In this document: positions 328 to 12,932 of the stretch, in pieces
How positions within the stretch are numbered: position 1 is the stretch's first letter
How the letters are laid out: each line of letters begins with the position of its first letter
Assembly (NCBI GenBank): GCA_023662865.1
Contig: JAMPIK010000008.1
Span: forward strand, 1-64,000
Length of the DNA stretch: 64,000 nucleotides
Direction of reading: 5' to 3'
Origin: Prevotella sp.
GTDB lineage: Bacteria > Bacteroidota > Bacteroidia > Bacteroidales > Muribaculaceae
The notes under the pieces: generated by a model
The model's input: only the letters and a program-made list of their open reading frames with translations
The model's database searches: none
Told to the model about the DNA's origin: nothing
Made by a program: the position numbers and the translations under genes

Positions 328-453
328 GGGATTTTGAGCAAGAAAAAAAATAGAGCGCTGAGTCGGGTTTCCGTTTCTCATCGCTCTATTCACGACTATG
401 GTATCTTTAAACGAATGCCATGTTTAAAAAAGGTGGAGTAGCGGATCGGGTTG

Positions 454-484
454 TTGGCCGTTTGCGAAAAATGTTGTAATTTTG
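454..484 (+). promoter_or_regulatory. Bacteroidota promoter of the U32 gene, leaderless arrangement
   Basis: TTG at 454-456, a 20-bp spacer and TAATTTTG at 477-484 match the -33/-7 consensus. The -7 box ends only 5 nt before the ATG at 490, so transcription should begin at or next to the start codon. Confidence 0.65.
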
Positions 485-489
485 CGAAT

Positions 490-1752
490 ATGAATCGCAG
501 CGATTTTGAAATAATGGCGCCCGTGGGGTGTCGCGAAAGCCTCGCGGCTGCCTTGCATGCCGGCGCTGATGCCGTGTATTTCGGTGTCGAAGGCCTGAAT
601 ATGCGCTCACGCTCAAGTGCTAACTTTACACTCGCTGACTTGCGCGAGATTGCTTCCATATGCTCCGACCGCGGTGTGAAAACTTACTTGACGGTGAACA
701 CCGTGATGTACGATTCCGACTTGGAGCTCATGCGCAAAATCATCGATACGGCAAAGCAAAGCGGAATTACGGCAATTATCGCTTCCGACATTGCCGCAAT
801 CATGTATGCGCACTCAATAGGGCAAGAGGTGCACATCTCAACTCAGGTTAACATATCAAACATCGAGGCCGTGCAATTCTATGCGCAATGGGCTGATGTC
901 ATGGTACTTGCTCGCGAGCTTAACATGGAGCGAGTAGCCGAGATATCCGCACAAATTCGCGAGCGAGACATTCGAGGCCCGAAAGGAGAGCCTGTCGGCA
1001 TCGAGATGTTCTGCCACGGCGCTCTGTGCATGGCCGTCTCCGGCAAGTGCTACATTAGTCTGCACGAGATGAACTCCTCGGCCAACCGCGGAGCTTGCGG
1101 TCAGATTTGCCGCCGTTCGTATCGCCTCACCGACATGGAAACCGGAGCGGAAATCGAGGTTGACAACAAGTACCTCATGTCACCGAAAGACTTGAAAACC
1201 ATTCATTTTCTTAACAAAATGGTTGATGCCGGAGTGAGTGTCTTCAAGATTGAAGGCCGTGCCAGAGGTCCGGAGTATGTGCACGAAGTAGTGAGCTGCT
1301 ACGATGAAGCACTCCGCAGCATATGCGCCGGCACATATACCCCGGAAAAGATTGCCGAGTGGGACACTCGTCTTGCCAAAGTATTCAACCGCGGATTTTG
1401 GGACGGCTACTACATGGGGCAACGCCTCGGCGAATGGAGCGCGAAATACGGCTCATCGGCCACTCGCGTGAAGAGGTATGCGGCTCGCGCAATCCGCTAT
1501 TTCTCCAAAATAGGAGTGGCCGAATTCAAGCTTGAAGCCGGAGAACTCAGGCCGGGCTCGGAGCTGATTATCACCGGCCCGACCACCGGAGCACTTATCA
1601 TTACTCCGCAGGAGATACGTGTTGACCTCAAGCCGGTGGAGAGAGTTCACAAAGGAGAACATTTTTCAATAGCCGTGCCGACAAAAGTTCGGCCCTCGGA
1701 TCGCCTGTACATTTGGGACGAAACGGCTGTCAATAAAGAAACAAACAAATAA
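490..1752 (+). CDS. Peptidase U32 family protein (TrhP/YegQ-like)
   Basis: The product is about 420 residues and belongs to the U32 collagenase-like family. Several members of this family act in tRNA wobble-uridine hydroxylation (TrhP) rather than proteolysis. The N-terminus EIMAPVGCRESLAAAL is the usual start of the TIM-barrel domain. The family signature IEMFCHGALCMAVSGKC lies near residues 171-187, followed by the Cys-rich NRGACGQICRRSY at 199-211, which could hold an Fe-S cluster. The C-terminal part (after about 310) looks like the small beta domain of U32 proteins. I start it at ATG 490: a TTG 39 nt upstream is in frame but lies in the -33 promoter element. A carboxynorspermidine dehydrogenase gene follows after 4 nt, so the two are probably co-transcribed. 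Protease and tRNA-modification roles cannot be told apart from sequence alone. Confidence 0.85.
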   Translation: MNRSDFEIMAPVGCRESLAAALHAGADAVYFGVEGLNMRSRSSANFTLADLREIASICSDRGVKTYLTVNTVMYDSDLELMRKIIDTAKQSGITAIIASDIAAIMYAHSIGQEVHISTQVNISNIEAVQFYAQWADVMVLARELNMERVAEISAQIRERDIRGPKGEPVGIEMFCHGALCMAVSGKCYISLHEMNSSANRGACGQICRRSYRLTDMETGAEIEVDNKYLMSPKDLKTIHFLNKMVDAGVSVFKIEGRARGPEYVHEVVSCYDEALRSICAGTYTPEKIAEWDTRLAKVFNRGFWDGYYMGQRLGEWSAKYGSSATRVKRYAARAIRYFSKIGVAEFKLEAGELRPGSELIITGPTTGALIITPQEIRVDLKPVERVHKGEHFSIAVPTKVRPSDRLYIWDETAVNKETNK

Positions 1753-1756
1753 AGAT

Positions 1757-2953
1757 ATGAATAAAGTTGTAATTATCGGAGCCGGAGGTGTAGGCACCGT
1801 TGTGGCTCACAAATGTGCGCAACACCCGGAGGTGTTCAATGAAGTGGTAATCGCCTCTCGCACGTTGAGCAAATGTCAGGCTCTCGTAGACAAAATCGGC
1901 GCGAAGAATTTCAGTGCCGAGCGCGTGGACGCCGACTCTGTCGAGGAGTTGTGCGAACTCTTCAAGAAGCACAAACCGGTGCTTTGCATCAATGTGGCAT
2001 TGCCATATCAGGATCTGACAATCATGGAGGCCTGCCTGGCTTGCGGTGTAAACTATCTTGACACGGCCAACTATGAGCCCAAAGACGAGGCTCACTTCGA
2101 GTACTCATGGCAATGGGCATACCGCGACCGCTTCGAGAAGGCCGGACTCACTGCCATTCTCGGCTGCGGCTTCGACCCCGGTGTCAGCGCAATCTTCGTG
2201 GCATACGCAGCCAAGCATCATTTCTCTGAAATGCAATATCTTGACATCGTAGATTGCAACGCCGGAAACCACGGCAAGGCTTTCGCCACTAATTTCAACC
2301 CCGAAATCAACATACGCGAGATTACCCAAAAGGGCAAATACTGGCAAGACGGCAAGTGGGTGGAAACCGAAAACCTTGAAATCCACAAGCCCCTTACATA
2401 TCCCAACATCGGCGAGCGCGAAAGCTATTTGCTTTACCATGAGGAGCTTGAAAGCCTTGTGCAGAATTTCCCGACAATTCGCCGCGCCCGTTTCTGGATG
2501 ACATTCGGACAGGAATATCTCACCCATCTGCGTGTGATTCAAGACATTGGCATGGCGCGTATTGACCCCGTGATGTACGAAGGTCGCGAAATCGTGCCCA
2601 TTCAATTCCTGAAAGCCGTGCTTCCCGACCCCGGTTCGCTCGGAGAAAACTACACCGGCGAGACATCAATCGGCTGCCGTATATCCGGCCTTGGCAAAGA
2701 TGGCAAGCCCACCACCTACTACATATACAACAATTGCTCGCATCAGGCGGCATACAAGGAAACCGGCGCACAAGCCGTGAGCTACACCACCGGCGTTCCG
2801 GCCATGGTAGGCGCCATGATGTTCCTCACCGGCAAATGGGTAATGCCCGGTGTGCGCAACGTTGAGGAATTTGACCCCGATCCCTTCCTCGAGCAGCTCG
2901 CCAAAGACGGCCTCCCCTGGCACGTGCTCACCGACATCGACCTCGAACTCTAA
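1757..2953 (+). CDS. Carboxynorspermidine/carboxyspermidine dehydrogenase (saccharopine dehydrogenase family)
   Basis: A 398-residue enzyme with an N-terminal Rossmann motif (VVIIGAGGVGTVVAHKCA, residues 4-21) and the VIASRTLSKC stretch typical of saccharopine-dehydrogenase-like proteins. The FDPGVSAIFVAYA and CNAGNHG segments match the Bacteroidales CANSDH/CASDH branch. That enzyme reductively condenses aspartate semialdehyde with a diamine to give carboxy(nor)spermidine, the first step of the alternative spermidine route. The decarboxylase (nspC) is not in this window. Saccharopine dehydrogenase itself is less likely, because lysine in Bacteroidales is made by the diaminopimelate route. It sits 4 nt after the U32 gene. 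Its stop is only 7 nt from the stop of the convergent truncated terminase gene. Confidence 0.85.
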   Translation: MNKVVIIGAGGVGTVVAHKCAQHPEVFNEVVIASRTLSKCQALVDKIGAKNFSAERVDADSVEELCELFKKHKPVLCINVALPYQDLTIMEACLACGVNYLDTANYEPKDEAHFEYSWQWAYRDRFEKAGLTAILGCGFDPGVSAIFVAYAAKHHFSEMQYLDIVDCNAGNHGKAFATNFNPEINIREITQKGKYWQDGKWVETENLEIHKPLTYPNIGERESYLLYHEELESLVQNFPTIRRARFWMTFGQEYLTHLRVIQDIGMARIDPVMYEGREIVPIQFLKAVLPDPGSLGENYTGETSIGCRISGLGKDGKPTTYYIYNNCSHQAAYKETGAQAVSYTTGVPAMVGAMMFLTGKWVMPGVRNVEEFDPDPFLEQLAKDGLPWHVLTDIDLEL

Positions 2954-2960
2954 CCCCCCA

Positions 2961-3926
2961 TCAGAAGAACCAGACGGGGTTTAGGGGCGGGGTGGCGGCT
3001 GCTGTGAAGGCTTCTTCGGGGGTGGAGGGGTATTCGGCCATCATTTGTTCGTGAGTGGGGTATTCTCGGCGCTTTTGGTGGTACCAGTGCACGGCTTTGA
3101 TGTCTACGCCTTCGAGGGAGAGGAGGGAGCGTTCGTAGTCATCGAGTTCGGCGGCGAGGGCTTTTCTCTCGGCTTCGTCTTTGAAGGGCTTGCGGTAGAT
3201 TTCGATTTCGTGCCACGGGACGAAGACGGGCGTCTTGTCGCTTTTGCCGGCTACGGCGCGTTGCCATTCATCGTGGAAGAAATTGTCTTCGCCGTCGGCG
3301 GTGCTTTCCATCACAACGAGCGTCTCCGGCTCAAGGGCCACGGAGGCTGCTATGGAGCGCACCGTGCGAGCGGCCACTTCCGGGTCTCCGTCTCCCCAGA
3401 AGGCCACCTCGCTGAGGTGTGCCATTTGATAGTTGCCACCGCGCACCGAGTTGGCGGCGATTGCCGAGGCGAGAGTTACGCGGCAATCGCGCGCTGCAAT
3501 ATAGTTGATGTTGCGGCTACCCTCAAAGGGGGAGAATGAGAAGTCCTTGGGCTTTTCACCTTTGAGAGCATCGGGGTAGTTGCGCAGGAGCATTGAGTAC
3601 ATACCGCGAATGTTGGCCGAAGCATCTTTTACGTGGCCGCATATCAGGGAGTTCCAGCCGTTGTGGCGAATGAGCTGCAACCAAGCCATGTATATTTGCA
3701 CCAGAGTACTGCCTCCCCATTGGCGAGCTTTGAGCAAAATCATGCGAATCGGCTGCTCGTTGCGGCGTTGGTCTTCGAGAATGGCGGCGACGCGGCGTTG
3801 GGGGCGGTTGAGGATGAACGGCACCGTTGCGCCGGTGATTTTGTCGGTGACACAGACACATTCGCGACACCATAATTCGAAGTTGTCCGTGTAACGCAGT
3901 TCGGGGTGTTGATTGAGGGTATTCAT
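2961..3926 (-). CDS. Phage terminase large subunit, ATPase domain only (C-terminal nuclease missing)
   Basis: The 321-residue product resembles the ATPase half of a large terminase, the motor that pumps DNA into a capsid through the portal. Visible parts are a Walker A-like loop LLKARQWGGST (64-74), an acidic AHLSEVAFW strand (169-177, Walker B region), the coupling motif VVMEST (205-209) and the linker MMAEYPSTPEEAF (295-307). In full-length relatives this linker leads into an RNase H-like nuclease of roughly 150-200 residues. Here the frame instead ends 14 residues later in TPPLNPVWFF. I place the start at 3926: it overlaps the preceding gene's TGA as ATGA, implying translational coupling; the frame is open further upstream only as an overlap. 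The missing nuclease suggests truncation of the cassette end, or adaptation to a function without cleavage. Confidence 0.8.
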   Translation of the reverse strand: MNTLNQHPELRYTDNFELWCRECVCVTDKITGATVPFILNRPQRRVAAILEDQRRNEQPIRMILLKARQWGGSTLVQIYMAWLQLIRHNGWNSLICGHVKDASANIRGMYSMLLRNYPDALKGEKPKDFSFSPFEGSRNINYIAARDCRVTLASAIAANSVRGGNYQMAHLSEVAFWGDGDPEVAARTVRSIAASVALEPETLVVMESTADGEDNFFHDEWQRAVAGKSDKTPVFVPWHEIEIYRKPFKDEAERKALAAELDDYERSLLSLEGVDIKAVHWYHQKRREYPTHEQMMAEYPSTPEEAFTAAATPPLNPVWFF

Positions 3927-5896
3927 GAGAGCGTGATTAGCTTTTTGAGATAAGTGACAGCCCCGGAGATTGTGAGGGTGATATTTTCGGCACCCGGCAG
4001 AACCTTTTTTGTGGTATGCGGCAGAGCCGTGATGATACTGAATCGCCGCTCCATCGGGGAGCAAAACCGGCCGATTGTGAAGTCGCGGCCGCTTTCGCTT
4101 GTGAGTTTGAAATCCAGCACACCCGAGGTTTTGGCATTGATGCACAGGCGTTGGCGCCAGCGATTGTCGGCCAAATTCACCCTCATGGAATATTGTGCCC
4201 GATTGTTGTCGGGAGGAGTTTCCGAGTCAAGCGAGCGGACATCGACAATTCCGTCCTCCTGTATGAAGAAAACGAGAGAAGACGAGAGCAGCCCCGGGAG
4301 AGGGAAGAATGTTTCATCGCGAGTGAACGCCTTGTTTCCTTTTTTCGGCAAAACAACCAGAGTTTTCTGCTCGCCACAAATCCAAAGCTCCTGAAACTTG
4401 TCGCTCCAAAGCAGAGAAAGAGTGTCGTCGAGGCCATCGAGAATAAACGAAGTTTTCGCATCTTTTATGAGCAGGAGCGTTCCGATGTCCGAGAGGGCGA
4501 AGATGCCTTTGGAAGTGGGAGTCCACAATTCGCGAGTGGAGAGCGTTTCGCGGCAGACGGGTCGGGAATTTGTATGCACGCCCTTGGGATCGTGGGTGAG
4601 AGCCACAATGCCGCGGTCGGTGCTCAAATAGATGTATTGGCGAGTGAAAGCGCCGCCGCCGGTGATTTGCGGAATTATGGAACGAATATGCGAGCCGACA
4701 CCGGCGGTAGAAGATTTGAGAACGAGCGGGTTGCCACGCTCGGAAGTGTACAGGTCGTTGCCCGAACCGATGTGCAGGAAGCCGCCATATCCGAGAATGC
4801 AGTCGGCTTGCCCGATGAAAGCCGGCATGGCAAGCATCGCATCATTGACAGCCGAGTCAAAGACCGTTTGCGCATCAAAGAAAAGAGAGCCGGACGTTTT
4901 CTCCAAGGGCCAGAAGTCGGTCAGCCCGTAATAAAGATGAGGAATAATCGCGTTGAGCAGCGAGTCCGGGTGGAGAGACGGCATGAAAGAGAGAGAGTTG
5001 CCGTTGTTACCGGCAAAGAAAGCCATAGCCGGTACATTCGAGTCATTGAGGGGAGAGGGCTCTTTCGAGACCCATATCTCGACCCCTTTGATAATATGCT
5101 CCCATTGGGAGGGGATTGAATTGTCGATAGAAACAGAGAAAGAGTAGCCGGAGGCTGAGATTGTAGCAGAGTCGGTACCGGTGAAGACCTTTTTGGCGGA
5201 GTCATAGATAAGACCGACTGAAAATCTGTCGGCACCGGGACGTTTGGGAGGGGAAATACGAATAGGGTCGCTGACGTGCAGGAGGGTGTCGTCCCACAAA
5301 CGCAGGGCGATTTTTACATTGACGGGTTCGCACCACTTGCCGGCGTTGTGAATTTGCGAGCGGAGTGCGTAGAAAGCGTTGAGCCAAGCTGCCCACACTT
5401 TGTCGGCGATTTGTTCCGATACGGGGTTTTCCGGGACAGACAGTGGCTTTGGGAAGGTGACCGGCTCTACACGTTGCGAGAAGGCGACACCTTGTTCAAT
5501 AGAGATAGAGAAAGTGGGAAGCTTGGGCATTTCGCCGAGCCATTGGTAAGAATTGAGCGCGGCATTACGAGCGATGTAAATGAGTTTGCCATTTTTCAGA
5601 CGAAGGATTACGAAGTCTCCGACAGAGGCTCCTTCCACAATTTTCTCTTCGACTCTGCCGAGAGTGAGAGGAACGAGAGAATTGAGGGGAACGGCGATTA
5701 CGGAGCCGTCGTCTTCTTGGGCGAAGAACCATTTTTCAGCGTTGAGCACATCGCTGAAAACGGGGGTATGACCGAGTTGGGCGGTAAGTGCCGGGGCGCC
5801 GACACCGAATAAGTCGCCACGGACAGGCCGGAGGTTGTGGCAAATGTAGGTGTCGGAGGGTTCGAGGGGGTTCAGGGGGTTGAGGGGGTGTTGCAT
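3923..5896 (-). CDS. Putative phage neck/tail protein with beta-propeller-like repeats (P22 gp10-like role inferred)
   Basis: A 657-residue protein between the portal and terminase genes. It has no signal peptide and is strand-rich throughout. The second half contains recurring segments such as YIYLSTDRGIVALTHD, LWTPTSKGIFALSD and LWICGEQKTLVVLP, which look like beta-propeller blades. In P22-like podoviruses the packaged-DNA stabilisation protein (gp10) or tail nozzle has a propeller fold and sits near the portal gene, so this role is inferred from fold and position; no family motif confirms it. The first codons carry a short tandem repeat (HPLNPLNPLEP) encoded by CCCCTnnAAC-like units. The start overlaps the portal gene by 25 nt. 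The open frame of 657 codons argues against recent decay. Confidence 0.55.
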   Translation of the reverse strand: MQHPLNPLNPLEPSDTYICHNLRPVRGDLFGVGAPALTAQLGHTPVFSDVLNAEKWFFAQEDDGSVIAVPLNSLVPLTLGRVEEKIVEGASVGDFVILRLKNGKLIYIARNAALNSYQWLGEMPKLPTFSISIEQGVAFSQRVEPVTFPKPLSVPENPVSEQIADKVWAAWLNAFYALRSQIHNAGKWCEPVNVKIALRLWDDTLLHVSDPIRISPPKRPGADRFSVGLIYDSAKKVFTGTDSATISASGYSFSVSIDNSIPSQWEHIIKGVEIWVSKEPSPLNDSNVPAMAFFAGNNGNSLSFMPSLHPDSLLNAIIPHLYYGLTDFWPLEKTSGSLFFDAQTVFDSAVNDAMLAMPAFIGQADCILGYGGFLHIGSGNDLYTSERGNPLVLKSSTAGVGSHIRSIIPQITGGGAFTRQYIYLSTDRGIVALTHDPKGVHTNSRPVCRETLSTRELWTPTSKGIFALSDIGTLLLIKDAKTSFILDGLDDTLSLLWSDKFQELWICGEQKTLVVLPKKGNKAFTRDETFFPLPGLLSSSLVFFIQEDGIVDVRSLDSETPPDNNRAQYSMRVNLADNRWRQRLCINAKTSGVLDFKLTSESGRDFTIGRFCSPMERRFSIITALPHTTKKVLPGAENITLTISGAVTYLKKLITLS

Positions 5897-7245
5897 TTTG
5901 CATATTTTTTTAGTGTTCTGTCTCTTCTGATTATGAAAGCACGGAAAGAAGAGAGGATGTCAAGCATGGAAATGAGGGCGTTTTCGAGTTCGGTTTTGAG
6001 CATACCTTCGCCCTGTGCAGAGGAGGATTTCCCGGTGAGTGCTCCGGTGGCACCGGAGATTTCGTCGAAGAGGGAAAGTTGGAGTTGGAGCATGCGAGTG
6101 GCCTCGTTACCGGCGGCGCCGGAAGAGGTTACCTGTTGAGGGACCATGCTCTTTGCAGTACGTTTGAAAGGGAGAATGCCGTTGGGATTAGCCCAGATGC
6201 GACGAATGTCTTTCCAAGAGAACCCTTCGGGGAGTTGGTCAGCGGGATATAAGAGGACGCCTTTGGCGGAGCTTGAGATTATGTGGTCGAGCAGGGAGAT
6301 GAGGCGGTTGATGTATTTTTGCTGGTCGATGACGTCTTCCACCAGCGAGTGTACTTCACCGTCAATCAGGGGATAGAAGCAAATTGCAAAGGGGGGCAAA
6401 GAGCCTTCGGGACAAATACGGGAATTAATTATTTCGCCGGCGGGGGTGAGCCAGGAGTTTATCCAGCGTTCACAGACGCGGTGTTTCACAATGAGTGGGT
6501 CGGAGCCGATTTCGGCTCGGGCTTTATTGAGGCCTTCCAGGCGAGGGAGTGCGTCAATACTGTCAGTAAAGGAGCGAGCGGCTACGGGGTCCGTGACATC
6601 GAGGTATTCGCAAGAAGAGAGCGACCACAGCTCGATGATACGGTATGTGCCCGGGACAGCCGGGGTAGCGAATTCAGAGATAGCCGCAACGGGCCAAGGG
6701 GCGGCTTGCGAAGCGCCGCGTTTGAGCATCTGCTTGAGCGTGCTTACTTGCCGGGGGTTGTCGGTGCCGAACCGATTAATTACATCAGCGAGGCTCATGT
6801 CGTGAAGCATTCCCATGAGGCGACAGTCGGAGGCATCGGAGCGGAAGAAGGGAGTGTAAAAGAAAGAGTCGGGACTGACGTTAACGGGGGAGTCCGGGTT
6901 GAGGCGTTGCACAGCGCGACCGCTAATCAGGAATTCCTCAAGAGCGCGGGCGTCCGTTTCGGAGACGGCCGGTTCGTTTCGGACGAACGAAGTGTCGGGT
7001 GAGCGAGCGCACATGTGTCTGTATCTGCCGATTACAGCTTTTATCATACGGCGAATGATGTTGTTTGTAACGGGGAGTCGGCCTTCCTCGACCATGCGTT
7101 GCTCTTCGGAGAGGATACGACCGTCGGAAGAGCGGCAAGAGTCGCCCCATTGTCGGCCATAAGTAAATGCTTTCAGACGAGCGCGTTGACGGCGCATCGG
7201 GGCTAATGCAAGCCATGCGTTTTGTGCTTGTTGGAGGGTGTTCAT
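5872..7245 (-). CDS. Phage portal protein (P22-like type)
   Basis: A 457-residue portal-like protein, the ring through which DNA enters the head. Early residues include the RRQRARLKAFTYGRQWGD and LPVTNNIIRRMIKAVIGRYR helices common at portal N-termini. Next come NVSPDSFFYTPFFRSDASDC and LMGMLHDMSLADVINRFG, then the wing/stem segment with VIDQQKYINRLISLLDHI, SSAKGVLLYP and the helix DEISGATGALTGK. The protein ends shortly after the long helix LLDILSSFRAFIIRRDRTL, so the C-terminal barrel may be short or trimmed. The ATG at 7245 (MNTLQQAQ) is preferred; an in-frame ATG at 7284 lies at the edge of a repeat. Capsid and terminase genes in the same cassette support the call. Confidence 0.75.
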   Translation of the reverse strand: MNTLQQAQNAWLALAPMRRQRARLKAFTYGRQWGDSCRSSDGRILSEEQRMVEEGRLPVTNNIIRRMIKAVIGRYRHMCARSPDTSFVRNEPAVSETDARALEEFLISGRAVQRLNPDSPVNVSPDSFFYTPFFRSDASDCRLMGMLHDMSLADVINRFGTDNPRQVSTLKQMLKRGASQAAPWPVAAISEFATPAVPGTYRIIELWSLSSCEYLDVTDPVAARSFTDSIDALPRLEGLNKARAEIGSDPLIVKHRVCERWINSWLTPAGEIINSRICPEGSLPPFAICFYPLIDGEVHSLVEDVIDQQKYINRLISLLDHIISSSAKGVLLYPADQLPEGFSWKDIRRIWANPNGILPFKRTAKSMVPQQVTSSGAAGNEATRMLQLQLSLFDEISGATGALTGKSSSAQGEGMLKTELENALISMLDILSSFRAFIIRRDRTLKKYAKCNTPSTP

Positions 7246-7268
7246 TTTCGTAAGAATAATAGATTCAC

Positions 7269-7350
7269 ATTTTTTATTAAACAAGCTCTAAATCGGTGTC
7301 TTACAGACACCTTTACAGGGGCTGCGAATAATCGGTGTGCTTCGCACACT
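7269..7350. repeat. Twin-hairpin extragenic repeat, copy A, with flanking 20-mer
   Basis: Two perfect hairpins lie in the spacer between the putative adaptor and portal genes: GGTGTCT-TAC-AGACACC at 7295-7311 and GTGTGC-TTC-GCACAC at 7335-7349. The segment 7318-7342 matches 17960-17984 at about 22 of 25 positions, and the first hairpin recurs at 17893-17907. The flank ending at about 7289 (TTTTATTAAACAAGCTCT) recurs at about 14621-14638. It is non-coding. Confidence 0.7.
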
Positions 7351-7413
7351 ACCAAAATTTATAAATATCAATGTAATGTAAGTGTCTGTTCAATTTAACT
7401 TGCGAAACTTGAA

Positions 7414-7965
7414 TTACGGGTCTAAGGAAAAGGTTGGGTAGTCTTGGTGGTCGAAAGAGTATGAGCCGTCGGAGGGCCATGCGGTCATCAACAGGCGTTC
7501 GAGCCTTGCGGCGGGGTTCGCGGCTACTTTTTGGAGAGCTGTGGCCAGGCCGTAAATGAATATTGTGTCCTTGTCTAGAATTACCGTGGGATTATCCGGG
7601 GTGCTCCTAAGCCATGAGTCGGACTGTCGGTGATGAGCCGGCGAGCCGAGGGGGAAGAATTGCCGTACCGGTACGCCCCATTCGTACAGCTTGACTTCTA
7701 CGAGCTGATAGCCCGAATCGGGAAGCCTGAGCATCAGGCAGTTGTCCGAGAGGAGTTCGCCTTGCGAGACATTCGTGGCGAGGTTACGCTGCGGGAGGCG
7801 ATCCGGAGGAGCGGAACGCAAGAGGTGTGCATACCATGCTTGGAGATGCTGCCTGATTGCAGCATCTATGTGCTGCTCGGAGGGAGAGTAGAGGTCGTCG
7901 TAACCGGGCATTAGGCCGTGTGTGGTTCGGTAGTTTGTGATTAATTGGGATTCTGTCAGGGTCAT
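7414..7965 (-). CDS. Putative phage head-tail adaptor/connector protein
   Basis: A 183-residue soluble protein between the major capsid and portal genes. It begins with a helix-rich segment (ESQLITNYRTTHG and HIDAAIRQHLQAWYAHLL) and continues with strands (LVEVKLYEWGVPVRQFFPLG, TVILDKDTIFIYGLATALQKVA). Size and position between capsid and portal suit a connector such as P22 gp4 or an HK97 gp6-like adaptor. No diagnostic motif is visible, so the role rests on context. It has its own ATG at 7965, 90 nt after the capsid gene, with a REP-type palindrome in that gap. Confidence 0.45.
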   Translation of the reverse strand: MTLTESQLITNYRTTHGLMPGYDDLYSPSEQHIDAAIRQHLQAWYAHLLRSAPPDRLPQRNLATNVSQGELLSDNCLMLRLPDSGYQLVEVKLYEWGVPVRQFFPLGSPAHHRQSDSWLRSTPDNPTVILDKDTIFIYGLATALQKVAANPAARLERLLMTAWPSDGSYSFDHQDYPTFSLDP

Positions 7966-8002
7966 GGCGTGGGGGTATTATGGGTGGATTGGGGTTGTAT
8001 GG

Positions 8003-8022
8003 GGGCGCGATATATGGCGCCC
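8003..8022. repeat. GC-rich extragenic palindrome (variant REP unit)
   Basis: GGGCGC, an 8-nt loop GATATATG and GCGCCC form a hairpin between the capsid and adaptor genes. It is a diverged relative of the palindromes at 9434-9463, 16278-16299 and 17624-17645. Confidence 0.6.
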
Positions 8023-8056
8023 GTATAAGGGGAAGCGGGGCATGGTGTGTGTGGGG

Positions 8057-9268
8057 TTAGACGCCGATTATTCGGGCGTGGGCTTCGGGGTAGCGGAGGG
8101 TCAGGCAGCTGGCTTCGGTCATTACGAGGGCTTCGCAGTTTCGCTGGCCGCTTCCTCGGAGGTCGAGGGTTTCGGCGTTGAATGGTATGAAGACGTGTTT
8201 CTGAATGTATTCGGGGTCGATGATTATGCCGTTGCCGGGCATTCCCATGAGGTCGAAGATGTCGGAGTAGACTACGAAGAGTTTGCCGAATTTGCTTTGG
8301 AGCTCGGAGAAGTCTATTCCCCAGGCTGTTACCTGATCTCTTGCGGTGATTACGTGGGTGTGTTCAATTTTGTTGAGCGCGGAGATGAGGTTGCTGCCGG
8401 CCATAAGCACTTTTCGTCTGGAGCCGGAGTTTTCGGCAAAAGTGGAGCGGAGCATATCAATAAGGGCAGAAGAATCGAATTCGTTGAGGTCAACGAGTAT
8501 TTCACGACCCGCTTGTTTCCAGATACCGCCGGTCATAGTTACCGTTTCGCCCTTGATGGGGTCGTAGATTTTGCTTTTGATACCGAAGAGGAACTGCTTC
8601 TCCATGCCGAGGCGCATATCGTAGACCGCCGCTTCTTGCTGGTCGTTGAAATCCCAGCCGATTTCTTTGTGAGAGAGCTTCATGACGACGCTCTGCTCGA
8701 TTTGCATTTTGAAAATTTGGCAGAAGTTTGTGCTCTTTGTGGGGAGAGCGGCGAATTGCGGGGTCTGCACATCGAGCTGTGTTGCAGCGCGTCCCATACG
8801 GATTATTTGTGTGCCCGGGGTGAGCACTTCTTCTGCGTTTGTGCCTACGATGAGAGTTCCGTCGGCGCGTTTCTCCATGATGTAGAAGAGATTTTCGCCG
8901 GGCATATCAAGCGAAGTGAACGTGTCGGAAGTTTCGAAGCGAGAAGGGTGTTGTACTGACATCGAGTAGACTTTACATTGAGCGCCTTCAACATCGCGGG
9001 CTTCGCTGAATGTAACGATTTCATCGCGATCAGCGCGAGTGTCTACGGAGTAATAGTCCACCTCCATAGAGTCAACGGGGCGCGTGTTTCCCATGCGAGA
9101 GATTTGGTCGAGAGGGGTTGCCATGGGTCTTACTTTGACGATAGCTTGGTCGATTGCGTTAACGAGGAGAGAGGGAGTTGCCTCGGCAGCGTTTTCGGTA
9201 GTGAGGGGAGTGCCTGAGATGTGGTTTCCGCCGTTCAGGCCGTCGACGATGTTGTTGTTTGTTTCCAT
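8057..9268 (-). CDS. Phage major capsid protein, SU10-like (DUF5309) type
   Basis: A 403-residue capsid-like protein. The N-terminal arm is flexible (METNNN, then LLVNAIDQAIVKVRPMATPLDQISR). It is followed by strand-rich segments including VDYYSVDTRADRDEIVTFSEA, a central helix EIGWDFNDQQEAAVYDMRLGMEKQFLFG, and GGIWKQAGREILVDLNEF. This order is typical of the HK97-fold DUF5309/SU10 major capsid family: E-loop, spine helix, then A domain with LMAGSNLISALNKIE. The C-terminus EALVMTEASCLTLRYPEAHARIIG ends in a P-domain-like strand. Usual length for this family is about 300-400 residues, so it appears complete. It is the first gene of the minus-strand cassette and has a host-type -7 box at 9297-9304. 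Some Bacteroidales phages carry similar proteins, so origin from a podovirus-like phage is likely. Confidence 0.75.
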   Translation of the reverse strand: METNNNIVDGLNGGNHISGTPLTTENAAEATPSLLVNAIDQAIVKVRPMATPLDQISRMGNTRPVDSMEVDYYSVDTRADRDEIVTFSEARDVEGAQCKVYSMSVQHPSRFETSDTFTSLDMPGENLFYIMEKRADGTLIVGTNAEEVLTPGTQIIRMGRAATQLDVQTPQFAALPTKSTNFCQIFKMQIEQSVVMKLSHKEIGWDFNDQQEAAVYDMRLGMEKQFLFGIKSKIYDPIKGETVTMTGGIWKQAGREILVDLNEFDSSALIDMLRSTFAENSGSRRKVLMAGSNLISALNKIEHTHVITARDQVTAWGIDFSELQSKFGKLFVVYSDIFDLMGMPGNGIIIDPEYIQKHVFIPFNAETLDLRGSGQRNCEALVMTEASCLTLRYPEAHARIIGV

Positions 9269-9296
9269 TATAATAATTGTTTGTTTGTTTGTATTG

Positions 9297-9304
9297 CAAA
9301 TATA
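9297..9304 (-). promoter_or_regulatory. -7 box of the capsid cassette
   Basis: On the minus strand the bases read TATATTTG, 28 nt before the capsid ATG at 9268, and a short (TTTG)n-type tract lies between them. No clear -33 element is seen at the usual distance, so strength is uncertain. Confidence 0.4.
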
Positions 9305-9433
9305 ATACTTGAATATGCTTGGTTGGTGGAGGAAATGATTATTTATTTGTAATAGTTTGGTTGATAGGTGGTTTCCGGTTTTGTTTTAACATATATTAAC
9401 ATCGTTGACGGGCGTTGCAGACCTTGAAATGAC

Positions 9434-9463
9434 AGTAGGGGCGCGATATATCGCGCCCCTACT
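9434..9463. repeat. Perfect 30-bp extragenic palindrome (REP-like)
   Basis: All 30 bases form a perfect palindrome centred at 9448/9449, with arms AGTAGGGGCGCGATA. It lies between the capsid gene and the second endonuclease gene. Related units occur at 8003, 16278 and 17624, all in non-coding DNA. Confidence 0.8.
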
Positions 9464-9492
9464 GAGGGGGGGTACACAACTTTGGTGGGTGG

Positions 9493-11184
9493 TTAGCGGA
9501 CGAGGACGGTGACGGGGCGTTGGCTTTGGTCGGTGGTCAGGAAGTAGACTCCGGGGGGGAGGAGGAGTTGGGTTTCACCGGCGATGGAGGGTTGATGATG
9601 GACGCATACTCCGGCGGTGTTTACAATGCGCAGGTTGGTTTGCTCGGAGTGCAGAAGTATGCGCAAGCCTCCCGGGATATATGCCGCGAGCAGGGGCTCG
9701 TTCATCTCTACTCCGGCCAATGCACCGGCAGCTACCATTATCATATTGCTTTCGGGGCTTTCGTAGCCGAGTCGCACGCTCTGCACGGTGTAGCTCTCCG
9801 CCACATCGCTCTGTCGCTCGTCTATCTCAAGACGGTTTTCTTCGGCTGCGAGGCGTGTGGTTACGGCACCGGAGCTGAGATAGCGTGTGCGATTCACCAT
9901 GTAATAGTCCACCACTTCGCCGTCGGGTGGGAGATTCCAGTTGGCTATATAGCCTGTTGCGGAAATGTCGGTTGCCGGCAGGGCTTCAAGAGCGGTAAGT
10001 GTGGGTGTGGGGAATGCTTCGCCGTGTATGCTGACGTTGAAGTTGGTGCCGTCGGGGAAGCCGCCGTCGTAGAGTGTGATTGCGGCGGTATGGTTGCCCA
10101 CGCTTGTGGGGGTGTAGCGTAGGGAGAGTTTGTAACCGGTATCAGAATTGATTGAGGAGGCCGGGATCTGATTGTTACTGATTCCTTGGATTGAGAACAT
10201 CCGGCGGTCAGTGCCGGTAACGCGCACTGACAGGGCGGAGGTCAGGTTAACGCCGTTTATGAGCAAGTCTACTGTCTGACTTTTGCCGACGGCCACCTGA
10301 CCGAAGTCGAGCGAGCTGCCGTCAATGGGTGCGAACAGTTCCGGATCGCCGGTGATTGGGGGGGTCACGGAGCCTTGCTGGTCCTTGATGTAGAACGTTT
10401 CGTTGGTGCGAGTTCCCCAAATGTATTCGGCAAGTTCGGGAAAGTCAATAAATGGGTTTCGGTTGCCTTGAATTTGGTATACGGCCTCGTTGCGGTCAAT
10501 CTCCTTTTGGCTCACCGGGTCGCGGCGCGCCCAGTCGAGAAGCAGCTCGTATGCCCAGGGTTTGAGGGTTGGATATGTGCCGTTTTGCACCATATATGTG
10601 TACTTCCATGTGTAATCCTGATAGCAGGTGGCTATATAGAAGTACGTGCGCGCGAAGTCGCCTTTGTACTCATCTGCCGGCTCGAATACCTGCCCGGCAC
10701 CGCCGCCTTGACCGGCGTAAGCATAGCCTACGGTAGTCACACCATTGTTGAAAGTGGAGCGCTGCACCTCGCCGAGAGGATAGTTGCTTTTTGCCATGTT
10801 GGCTTCTGACTCGCTGGGGTACAGATGGTTAAGGTCTGTATACGCTTCGTTTTGCGCACCGCCCCACCATGATTTGGGGAACGAGTGTTCGCGGTTCATA
10901 CCACTCCAACCGTTGCGCACAAGGAAAATCATGTCGGAGTACATTTCCCACCAACGTTGCTGTCCGTTGTACAATTCGGGATATACATCGGTCTTAGGAA
11001 ATTGCTGCGGGAACAAAGAGTTGTAAGTCACAACCGTATGAGGGCGTATTACCTCAAAGGCGGCTGTTTTCAGTTCTTCCTTTTTCTTGCCGTCCATGCG
11101 GAGATAGTAAGAAGCCGGGGGAGCTGCCTGAATGAGCAGCAGTGTGCCGCTCAATGCTAAAATTAAGGAGAATATGCGTTTCAT
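9493..11184 (-). CDS. Secreted endonuclease I family nuclease with T9SS sorting domain (paralogue 2)
   Basis: A 563-residue exported protein with signal peptide MKRIFSLILALSGTLLLIQA. The EndA/NucM-type domain spans roughly residues 30-260. Its catalytic beta-beta-alpha/metal segment MNREHSFPKSWWGG (96-109) holds the expected His, and the conserved RNPFIDFPELAEYIWG supplies the metal-binding Asn. An Ig-like segment around 280-395 (LDFGQVAVGKSQTVDL) and an FN3-like segment follow. The C-terminus (RIVNTAGVCVHHQP to GVYFLTT and VTVLVR) matches the type A T9SS sorting domain, so the enzyme is probably displayed or released extracellularly to degrade DNA or RNA. It starts 4 nt after its upstream paralogue's stop, so the pair forms an operon. 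Confidence 0.85.
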   Translation of the reverse strand: MKRIFSLILALSGTLLLIQAAPPASYYLRMDGKKKEELKTAAFEVIRPHTVVTYNSLFPQQFPKTDVYPELYNGQQRWWEMYSDMIFLVRNGWSGMNREHSFPKSWWGGAQNEAYTDLNHLYPSESEANMAKSNYPLGEVQRSTFNNGVTTVGYAYAGQGGGAGQVFEPADEYKGDFARTYFYIATCYQDYTWKYTYMVQNGTYPTLKPWAYELLLDWARRDPVSQKEIDRNEAVYQIQGNRNPFIDFPELAEYIWGTRTNETFYIKDQQGSVTPPITGDPELFAPIDGSSLDFGQVAVGKSQTVDLLINGVNLTSALSVRVTGTDRRMFSIQGISNNQIPASSINSDTGYKLSLRYTPTSVGNHTAAITLYDGGFPDGTNFNVSIHGEAFPTPTLTALEALPATDISATGYIANWNLPPDGEVVDYYMVNRTRYLSSGAVTTRLAAEENRLEIDERQSDVAESYTVQSVRLGYESPESNMIMVAAGALAGVEMNEPLLAAYIPGGLRILLHSEQTNLRIVNTAGVCVHHQPSIAGETQLLLPPGVYFLTTDQSQRPVTVLVR

Positions 11185-11188
11185 AGTA

Positions 11189-12865
11189 TTACTTGATTAT
11201 AACGGTTTTGGTTGTTGTATTGCCGATGCGAACCATGTACACACCCGGAGCATCGGGGCGAGAGGGGAGCTCAATGCCGGAAGCATCGAAGTAGCGCGGT
11301 GTGCCCTGCTCGATATTGATTGAAGAGAGAGCGGCCGAGGCGTTGACAATCACCTCATTGCCGGCCGGACTTTCGGTGTCTCCCAAAGTAGCGGTAACGC
11401 TAAGCACCTCCTTCTTGGAGGGGTCGCGGTCGTCAATTCTCAAAGAAGTTTTCTCGCCGTCTACCTCGTATGTAAGTATTTCGGGGGTATCGTCTTCATC
11501 ATAAATTTTGCGTGTCACGGTGTAGAAATCCGGTTCAAGGGCAGAGGGAAGCCAATGCAGAGTGTAGCCGGACTCTTCCTCATCTTCTACGGGGAGAGTG
11601 GTTATGGCAGTAAGTTCCACTGAAGCAACGCATTGCCCTTGCAGATTGGCCGTAACCGGGGCTGCGAGGTCTTGACATGTAATAGTAATGGTAGCCTCAT
11701 CGTTAGCATCCTGCGGAGTGGCGGTTAGGGGTTTGTATTCCACTTTGAGGGTATAACCCTCTGTGGAGGCCACATCTGCGGCGTTTATACTGATTGCTTG
11801 CAGGGAGAGTGTACCCACTTTAAATGAATACAAAGCAGCGGCGTCACCACCGATACGGGCAGTGAGGTTATGGGTAAAGCCGGAGCCTACAACGGGGATT
11901 TCCATCAGCACGGACTCTCCGGGGTTGGTGGTGGAGAACGTGTACCAGTCACCGTTAATCGGAGCTGTGAGCTTTGCATCGGTCACGGGTTCGGGATTGG
12001 GGTCGGGATCCGGGTCCGGGTCAACTATCGTGCCGCCTCCACCGGAGGAAGACCAAGCTTCGCCCATTTTGTCGCCCCAAATGTACTCGGCCATTTCCGG
12101 GTGGTCGATAAAGGGGTTGCGGTTGTGCTGATGCTTATATACGGCCTCGTTGCGGTCAAGCTCCTTTTGACTCACCGGGTCATTGCGGTGCCAGCGCAGC
12201 AGCATATCAATAGCCCAAGGCTGCAAGGTGGGATATGTTCCCTGAGCAGCTGTGTACAAACCGTTTTCCTTCCATGTCAAGTCTTGATAACAGGTCACCA
12301 TATAAAAATATGTACGCGCGAGGTCTCCCTTGAACTCATCGTCCGGCTCGAAGACATGATTGCTCCCGCCTCCTTGACCGCTCACGGGCGAGCCATGCTT
12401 GAAGCGAGGGTTGGGGCATTTGTTGCTTATGCTTTGTTCGGAAGCCACTTCGCCGTATGGCCAATTGCTGCGTGTGGAGTTGGCCACGGAGTTTGTCGGC
12501 ATAAGGTGCATCACATCGCAATAGGCGTTGTTCTTGTTTCCTCCCCACCATGATTTCGGGAATGTGTGTTCCTTGTTCATGGTATTGTTGTCAGGTGCAC
12601 CGGAACCGACTTTTACCTGATTGGTAGTGTAAATATCCCACCAATAACCATCGGGGTGTACATCGGAGTCGAAAAACACTCCCCATGTCTGGTTGTTACC
12701 GTTGCCATACGATATTTTGGTATGGTTCTTCACAATAGTGTAGAGCTGATTTTTGAGCGCGGCCTTTGTTTTACCCTCACAGTCAGCGTAGTATCCGTCA
12801 GGTATCTCGGCGTAGGAAAGCATCGGGCACAATGCCGCGGCAATCAATAGTATTTTTGATTTCAT
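11189..12865 (-). CDS. Secreted endonuclease I family nuclease with T9SS sorting domain (paralogue 1)
   Basis: A 558-residue exported nuclease starting at MKSKILLIAAALCPMLSYA; an in-frame ATG 63 nt upstream would destroy the signal peptide. The endonuclease I core (about 25-265) carries MNKEHTFPKSWWGG (96-109, catalytic His at 100), HLMPTNSVANSTRSNWPYGEV, GQGGGSNHVFEP and RNPFIDHPEMAEYIWG. A DPDPDPDPNPEP linker near 280 joins an Ig-like domain and an FN3-like segment. The C-terminus GVYMVRIGNTTTKTVIIK is a T9SS sorting tail. It is first in a two-gene operon; a -7 box TAACTTTG lies at 12933-12940 on the minus strand. The two paralogues share domain order but differ strongly in linkers, so the duplication is old. 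Confidence 0.87.
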   Translation of the reverse strand: MKSKILLIAAALCPMLSYAEIPDGYYADCEGKTKAALKNQLYTIVKNHTKISYGNGNNQTWGVFFDSDVHPDGYWWDIYTTNQVKVGSGAPDNNTMNKEHTFPKSWWGGNKNNAYCDVMHLMPTNSVANSTRSNWPYGEVASEQSISNKCPNPRFKHGSPVSGQGGGSNHVFEPDDEFKGDLARTYFYMVTCYQDLTWKENGLYTAAQGTYPTLQPWAIDMLLRWHRNDPVSQKELDRNEAVYKHQHNRNPFIDHPEMAEYIWGDKMGEAWSSSGGGGTIVDPDPDPDPNPEPVTDAKLTAPINGDWYTFSTTNPGESVLMEIPVVGSGFTHNLTARIGGDAAALYSFKVGTLSLQAISINAADVASTEGYTLKVEYKPLTATPQDANDEATITITCQDLAAPVTANLQGQCVASVELTAITTLPVEDEEESGYTLHWLPSALEPDFYTVTRKIYDEDDTPEILTYEVDGEKTSLRIDDRDPSKKEVLSVTATLGDTESPAGNEVIVNASAALSSINIEQGTPRYFDASGIELPSRPDAPGVYMVRIGNTTTKTVIIK

Positions 12866-12932
12866 GTTTATAAATCGGAGTTTGTTGTTATTTGTTGAGG
12901 TTGCGAAGGCGCAAAACCGTCTCTGCAACTTG

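Follow-up and report, generated by a model that had tools for sequence, protein, structure and literature searches.

At positions 2961–9268 of the window, a 64,000-nucleotide stretch of a Prevotella sp. genome (2.03 Mb in 41 contigs, the window being contig C40, and 99.8% complete), there are five minus-strand open reading frames (ORFs), all in frame, abutting or overlapping one another, and with ordinary host genes on both sides (Table 1). The genome contains one capsid, one portal, and one terminase gene. A sequence-only reading of the locus had proposed a minus-strand cassette of five genes between host genes, encoding an SU10-like capsid, a putative adaptor, a portal, a putative propeller-type neck protein, and a terminase ATPase, with no integrase, replication, repressor, lysis, or fibre genes on either side. 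This description holds: all five frames are as it gave them, the capsid, portal, and terminase ATPase assignments are supported by Pfam, PHROG, and the T4 gp17 profile, and neither the gene list nor Pfam searches of the flanks identified integrase, replication, regulator, lysis, or fibre genes near the cassette. The terminase coordinates are refined, as translation probably starts at ATG 3926, overlapping the nozzle stop codon, rather than at the listed GTG 4145, which is too far upstream.

Table 1. Coordinates of the cassette genes, the probable promoter, and flanking host genes in the window
Feature	Coordinates	Strand	Notes
Host peptidase U32 gene	451..1752	+	Flank; Pfam
Host saccharopine dehydrogenase gene	1757..2953	+	Flank; Pfam
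Terminase large subunit, ATPase domain only	2961..3926	-	321 aa; PHROG terminase and T4 gp17 profile match
Nozzle (beta-propeller tail) protein, by predicted fold	3923..5896	-	657 aa; 25-nt overlap with portal gene; AlphaFold pLDDT 87
Portal	5872..7245	-	457 aa from ATG 7245 (470 aa from TTG 7284); Pfam P22_portal
Head-tail adaptor, by predicted fold	7414..7965	-	183 aa; AlphaFold pLDDT 91; Foldseek and VIA matches
Major capsid protein, SU10/HK97-type	8057..9268	-	403 aa; Pfam SU10_MCP (PF17236) E 1.5e-47
Probable operon promoter	9293..9330	-	tattataTTTGC, about 40 nt before capsid ATG; sequence reading only
Two tandem host Endonuclease I genes	9493..12928	-	Flank, capsid side; Pfam Endonuclease_1

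The capsid protein scores well above the curated cut-off for PF17236 (163 bits versus 24.1) and is 64–77% identical to five copies from the same genus. The portal matches both Pfam P22_portal (E 9.8e-16) and PHROG 156 (E 7.6e-26), and alignment and comparison of lengths show that it is C-terminally short relative to the 620–700 aa portals of phages and other families. The terminase has only a sub-threshold Pfam match, to Terminase_6N, and is identified by the PHROG terminase large subunit (E 2.4e-13) and, when used as a profile against the PDB, by T4 gp17 (E 1.4e-11); the Walker A (ARQWGGST), acidic SE, and ESTADG motifs are all kept, and the nuclease domain is absent.

The host flanks also include DUF805, esterase, biotin ligase, and TsaE genes, as assigned by Pfam. 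The peptidase U32 gene adjoins or sits inside the module in several relatives (L018–L021, and L176 in another genus), and the U32–saccharopine dehydrogenase pair is also near the module in L018. In genus g45, an Endonuclease I homologue with 50% identity lies next to U32 and the capsid cluster (L176, 6162–7817). Two copies of a GGGGCGCGATATATCGCGCCCC-like palindrome occupy the gaps before the adaptor and capsid genes (8002–8025 and 9433–9464, respectively), and these have the appearance of a dispersed intergenic repeat.

Predicted folds of the adaptor and nozzle

The adaptor and nozzle proteins lack any informative family match, yet both are predicted to fold with confidence (Table 1). With Foldseek the adaptor model matches those of phicrAss001 (7qoj_D, E 1.5e-4) and SU10 (7z47_A), and with VIA it matches several podovirus adaptors at Z 6–7, LME-1 being among the matches. 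The nozzle model gives VIA matches at Z 16–22 to P22 gp10, Pam1/Pan3, SU10, T7 gp12, and the crAss001 muzzle, including Z 20 over 381 residues (rmsd 4.2) to P22 gp10 and Z 18 to the SU10 nozzle. As modelled, the protein meets the criterion for a podovirus nozzle, i.e. the P22 gp10/T7 gp12 fold over most of its length, and both assignments that had been given only as putative are confirmed at the level of predicted fold, the propeller being of the nozzle type. Profile comparisons place the window propeller, an 830-aa gene product encoded beside sister-genus terminases, and an 880-aa gene product of other families in a single family (probabilities 99.7–99.9), which profiles also find in phages.

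The window's capsid does not have the N-terminal hydrophobic segment found in phage and other-family capsids (L169–L175, L213, L214), and this membrane-type N-terminus is lacking in the window's family. The phage head module contains a rhomboid-protease-like gene (L213, 18031–18498; L214, 17978–18496), and it is conceivable that this gene and the membrane-type capsid start reflect a membrane-linked step in head assembly or maturation.

Distribution and arrangement of the module in relatives

A capsid profile identified homologues in 87 of 111 same-genus genomes and in 43 of the 46 that are near-complete, usually as a single copy with an open frame. Portal and terminase genes are present in 45 and 43 of the 46 near-complete genomes, respectively, and are almost always single and open. 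These counts pool two kinds, the type I of the window, which is present in 14 genomes of the genus including the window's, and a divergent type II, found in most of the others. Across a sample of 392 Bacteroidales genomes spread evenly over families, each of the seven genera sampled from the window's family has a window-type capsid, as do repeated species of families f22, f28, f58, f65, f84, and f103; such capsids were not found in most of the other families of the sample. Among 19 such capsid-bearing genomes, all have one portal and 18 have one terminase, and a nozzle was found in 12 of the 14 genomes tested; G383 has capsid and portal genes with no detectable terminase or nozzle. A search for plasmid carriage of the cassette gave no match.

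In a tree of 95 capsid sequences all 69 type I copies that reside in hosts group as a single clade (SH-aLRT 98), the phage copies fall in a separate clade (99), and the copies from the window's genus form a subclade (100). A branch with support of 100 in the terminase tree has phages and type II together on one side.

The compact organization of the window is not typical of the module, as outside this form tens to hundreds of kilobases separate the genes. In the complete genome G365, for example, the capsid is at 1,395 kb, the terminase at 1,427 kb, the portal at 1,149 kb, and the nozzle at 1,132 kb; in G337 all four are within about 52 kb. The scaffold–capsid–adaptor cluster adjoins the same host gene, a class I fumarase, in families f28, f58, f65, f84, and f103, and the capsid cluster adjoins an Xaa-Pro aminopeptidase gene in f22. 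Other genera of the window's family have adjacent capsid, adaptor, and portal genes, with a nozzle-type gene adjoining the terminase in several. In the window's own subclade the capsid, adaptor, portal, and nozzle genes form one cluster, and the terminase is joined to the end of it in the window, G028, and G118, is nearby with peptidase U32 in between in G034, G030, and G004, and is elsewhere in the other genomes. Because the parts are arranged differently across genera and families and the nozzle is one family throughout, we regard the cassette as a local arrangement of a wider set with at least six parts: a scaffold or small upstream ORF, capsid, adaptor, portal, nozzle, and terminase.

A second set, type II, in the same genus

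Type II terminases group with BS-TP4-like phages in the terminase tree. The type II genes are scattered and are single copy in most species, with portals of 438–570 aa, an intact terminase nuclease, and a capsid only about 17% identical to that of the window (L026–L029, L257–L276); no integrases were seen with these sets. Type II is likely to represent a second domestication that is apparently replacing the first, and no genome was seen with both types in apparently working form. We do not treat type II as one clade, which an AU test rejects and within which two IMG/VR contigs (L211, L212) nest. Phage-like sets with long portals are also present in some genomes (G057, G101, and G107).

Loss of the terminase nuclease

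Alignment of 31 terminases shows that the ATPase motifs are kept in every one. Intact nuclease motifs (ESN, HDD) occur in phage and type II terminases, as well as in those of six other families and of five further genera within the family. In the window's subclade the nuclease is degenerate in eight copies and, in six, is missing together with most or all of the domain; the terminase ends in this subclade are precise and shared. One of the eight genomes with a degenerate nuclease, G103, has no detected capsid.

A stand-alone homologous nuclease domain was not found in the window genome with a nuclease-domain profile. We considered a split terminase with the nuclease supplied in trans, and rejected it as, by the same profile, such a domain is absent from the window genome and from 11 of the 13 relatives. 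The only match in G018 is a 161-aa nuclease fragment, with motif II as KSN instead of ESN, and this terminase fragment is type II-like in a type I genome; the G107 nuclease copy is part of a phage-like set. The adjacent Endonuclease I pair was likewise rejected as the missing cutter, being supported by proximity alone, and its position beside a packaging operon that lacks a nuclease is likely to be a coincidence.

Selection on the module

The module is under strong purifying selection in the scattered families. In comparisons of G365 with G420 and of G087 with G322, dN/dS is 0.03–0.04 for the capsid, 0.046 for the portal, and about 0.10 for the terminase, with values of 0.03–0.06 for the scaffold, 0.06 for the nozzle, and 0.16–0.20 for the adaptor; most host genes at these loci are at 0.01–0.09. 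Values are higher in the window's clade, at 0.12–0.42 for the capsid, 0.13–0.50 for the portal, and 0.11–0.31 for the terminase, and the adaptor and nozzle reach about 0.75–0.8 with dS near saturation. All of these values are approximate, since dS is near saturation in most pairs, and for the portal it is saturated between G365 and G420. No stop codon interrupts any copy used in the dN/dS comparisons.

Promoters and co-regulation

The Bacteroidetes -7 consensus is TAnnTTTG, and it is matched by tattataTTTGC upstream of the window's capsid gene. In family f103, pairwise comparison of upstream regions in G365 and G420 revealed a shared box, TGCCAYAAA-N(14-26)-TTTGC. It has exactly three matches in the whole 3.08 Mb genome of G365, all with a 22-nt gap, and these are 18–36 nt before the starts of the scaffold (heading the capsid operon), portal, and terminase genes. 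In three genomes not used in its derivation (G466, G213, and G298), every match with a 22-nt gap precedes a scaffold, portal, terminase, or spike-like gene, and matches with other gaps precede unrelated genes. In G420, besides the scaffold and the terminase, the only genes to which 22-nt-gap matches lead are a spike-like gene and five paralogous coiled-coil genes, the fifth of which (L293) was assigned by reading frame. No lysis gene is present among the f103 box targets, which are structural, spike-like, or coiled-coil genes of unknown function. The f103 box was also sought before the window's capsid gene and is absent there.

The spike-like genes that carry the capsid/terminase box in f103 genomes encode beta-helix proteins (L286, 2867–5305; L292, 2832–5207) with a weak, sub-threshold pectate-lyase-like match. 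Their N-terminal part is 33–34% identical over 58 residues to the product of a gene directly after the adaptor in viral contig L195. The five coiled-coil paralogues carrying the box in f103 (L288–L291, L293) are 145–155 aa long and of unknown role.

Similarity between promoters of separate module loci was evaluated against real host promoter pairs from the same loci, which replaced first-pass shuffles; in some genomes only 15–36 such pairs were available. The capsid–terminase promoter match exceeds every compared host pair in G466, G087, G483, G151, G321, G239, G437, G116, and G150, as does the scaffold–portal match in G365; families f1, f28, and f103 are represented, and G116 and G150 both belong to the window's subclade. 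By this control G337, G115, and G018 have a weak shared box or none, the apparent support that shuffles gave for G337 having been lost. The box sequence differs among genera, a pattern that would fit the box and its regulator changing together. The scattered loci thus share promoters in relatives and are likely to be co-regulated, although this is inferred from sequence alone.

Comparison with known systems

The closest free relatives are the Bacteroides phages BF1-TP2, BS-TP4, and BKO1-TP3, whose capsids are 33–35% identical to the window's. BF1-TP2 and BS-TP4 (PQ571263, PQ571277) have homologous capsid (34%), portal, terminase, scaffold, adaptor, and nozzle genes, in the order portal, terminase, rhomboid-like gene, and small gene, and divergently scaffold, capsid, small gene, and adaptor. 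They differ from the window in having 64–68 kb genomes in which lysis and further genes belong to a single block, terminases with a complete nuclease, and portals of 644–657 aa. The terminases of these two phages (L213, L214; PQ571263.1, PQ571277.1) are deposited as 'tail spike protein' and their capsids as DUF5309/DUF2951 proteins. The virion parts of SU10 (Kuravirus) and of P22/T7 share the folds of the module's capsid, adaptor, portal, and nozzle, but these are free phages and sequence identity is low, at about 10%.

Two gene transfer agents (GTAs) offer the nearest parallels. FpGTA of Faecalibacterium (PMC12946183) also resides in a gut commensal, has podovirus-like heads and no replication or integration genes, is near-ubiquitous in its genus with respect to capsid, portal, and terminase, and has a second operon elsewhere. 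It belongs to another phylum, however, and particles and packaged DNA have been shown for FpGTA but not for the Bacteroidales module; the module, in contrast, has more loci in relatives, is spread over many genera and several families, and in the window has a terminase with no nuclease. The RcGTA-like GTAs of Alphaproteobacteria (PMC7947584) are, like the module, of single origin and vertically inherited, with dispersed particle genes; phage derivation, host control, and purifying selection are further shared features. RcGTA is siphovirus-like with a headful TerL containing both ATPase and nuclease, whereas the Bacteroidales module is short-tailed and SU10/P22-like, and the TerL of the window's clade is ATPase-only.

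Compared with the features of a GTA, the system has head, portal, and terminase genes of phage origin in the chromosome of its host and is vertically inherited, near-fixed in its clade, and under purifying selection. No integration or replication genes were seen in the loci read, and the genes occupy several host-controlled loci, scattered in relatives and combined into one operon in the window. A further feature, a terminase with ATPase and nuclease for headful cutting, was tested and is lacking in the window, and because the nuclease is absent we do not classify the window's copy as a GTA; on paper, the system in relatives operates in the manner of a GTA. The features of a prophage (mobility, replication, and lysis genes, and variable presence) are lacking. 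The open-access literature searched, which excludes preprints and subscription papers, contained no report of a GTA or of a domesticated capsid system from Bacteroidales. We regard the module as ancient and as GTA-like in anatomy, with particles and transfer being inferred.

Interpretation and alternative explanations

The conserved content, single copy number, absence of mobility genes from the loci read, purifying selection, and common promoters in relatives are shown directly; particles, DNA packaging, and delivery are inferred, without any observation so far of a particle, of packaged DNA, or of transfer. We interpret the cassette as domesticated rather than as a decaying prophage because of its distribution, the grouping of its host-resident capsids in one clade, its host neighbours, the purifying selection, and the shared promoters, and we are highly confident that it is a functional module derived from a short-tailed phage, although particle function is an inference. 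Overall, the best explanation is probably a vertically inherited, particle-making remnant of a phage related to BF1-TP2 and BS-TP4. The lack of any lysis gene tied to the system, and of the other families' box at the window's promoter, count against this reading, as do the nuclease loss in the window's subclade, the fast evolution of nozzle and adaptor there, the weak or absent shared box in G337, G115, and G018, and the missing terminase and nozzle of G383.

In this view the proteins would assemble into a capsid that has a portal vertex and a short nozzle, and in most lineages the complete terminase, with ATPase and nuclease, would load host DNA headful by headful as in GTAs; that relatives with the full terminase have such a DNA-packaging system is likely and is the simplest reading for them, packaging being inferred. 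In the window's lineage the genes make up a single operon, and its terminase consists of the ATPase alone. A TerL usually cuts the DNA, pumps it, and then makes a second cut (PMC7947584). The window's motor may still pump DNA and would be able neither to cut in nor to cut off, and a motor that cannot cut would therefore need ends made by another nuclease, or else would package little or no DNA. We lean slightly against the window's own subclade still packaging DNA, which would in any case be inferred; loading of pre-cut DNA and a particle without DNA both remain possible there, with simple decay less so. A bolder reading, for which we judge the balance to be somewhat unfavourable, is that gut Bacteroidales families share an ancient and functional gene-transfer system of short-tailed phage origin with scattered genes and one promoter code, replaced by the independently domesticated type II in most species of the window's genus and, in the species of that genus that kept it, turned into a particle free of the nuclease, with new or no DNA loading.

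The strongest alternative, which remains possible, is that the module is domesticated but is not a DNA carrier in the window's lineage, forming an empty or differently loaded particle (a killing particle, a decoy, or a protein cage) in which the ATPase is retained to serve in assembly or in some other role. The nuclease loss common to 14 genomes with invariant ATPase motifs, the constraint on capsid, portal, and ATPase, the shortened portal, and the retention of capsid and portal without a detectable terminase in G383 favour it. On the other hand, it is not evident what use a packaging ATPase, portal, and adaptor would have if no DNA were translocated, there is no attached toxin, cargo, or fibre gene, and the nozzle, a conduit for DNA ejection, is retained.

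A second alternative is late decay confined to the window's subclade, with type I being lost as type II takes over. This agrees with the presence of type I in only 14 genomes of the genus, the others having type II, and with the lost nuclease, the absence of a scaffold-like ORF ahead of the capsid gene in the window, and the fast evolution of adaptor and nozzle in the window's group. It is unlikely, however, given that the copies read contain no stops despite near-saturated synonymous change, that the terminase ends are precise and shared, and that promoters are matched between separated parts in G116 and G150. A recently inserted ordinary prophage remnant or satellite is all but excluded: the genes have homologues in phages, among them temperate Bacteroides phages, and phage-like long-portal sets are found in G057, G101, and G107, but no integrase, replication, regulator, lysis, or fibre gene is nearby, and the distribution as a near-universal single copy, the single clade of host-resident copies in the tree, and the conserved host neighbours and promoters rule it out.

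Returning to the preferred reading of a domesticated module, the sequence-only reading had suggested a domesticated particle-forming module (GTA-like or other), and this is supported by position, selection, single-copy presence, and shared promoters; its satellite and prophage-remnant options are not. Its expectation of a fixed position between the same host genes holds in part of the family only, and that of dN/dS well below 1 holds for capsid, portal, and terminase, with adaptor and nozzle rising to about 0.8 in the window's clade. Neither of the observations it gave as refuting domestication was made: no integrase, lysis, or tail genes were seen adjacent in 14 same-clade loci, and the five frames are open, without stops, in every copy read. 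It missed that the system spans several Bacteroidales families, usually in scattered form, and that the terminase here has no nuclease domain.

Bacteroidales are among the commonest bacteria of animal guts and have high rates of gene exchange, and an inherited, co-regulated, and selected particle system would, if confirmed, be a hidden route of gut gene flow or bacterial competition. Some of the hosts are represented by complete or near-complete genomes and are perhaps culturable, and one subclade, having lost the nuclease naturally, offers a way to test what cutting and pumping each contribute to such particles.

Virus callers can list such domesticated loci as viral contigs. Gene content and position in the terminase tree indicate that the IMG/VR viral contig L178 (IMGVR_UViG_2681813420) is probably such a locus in a host.
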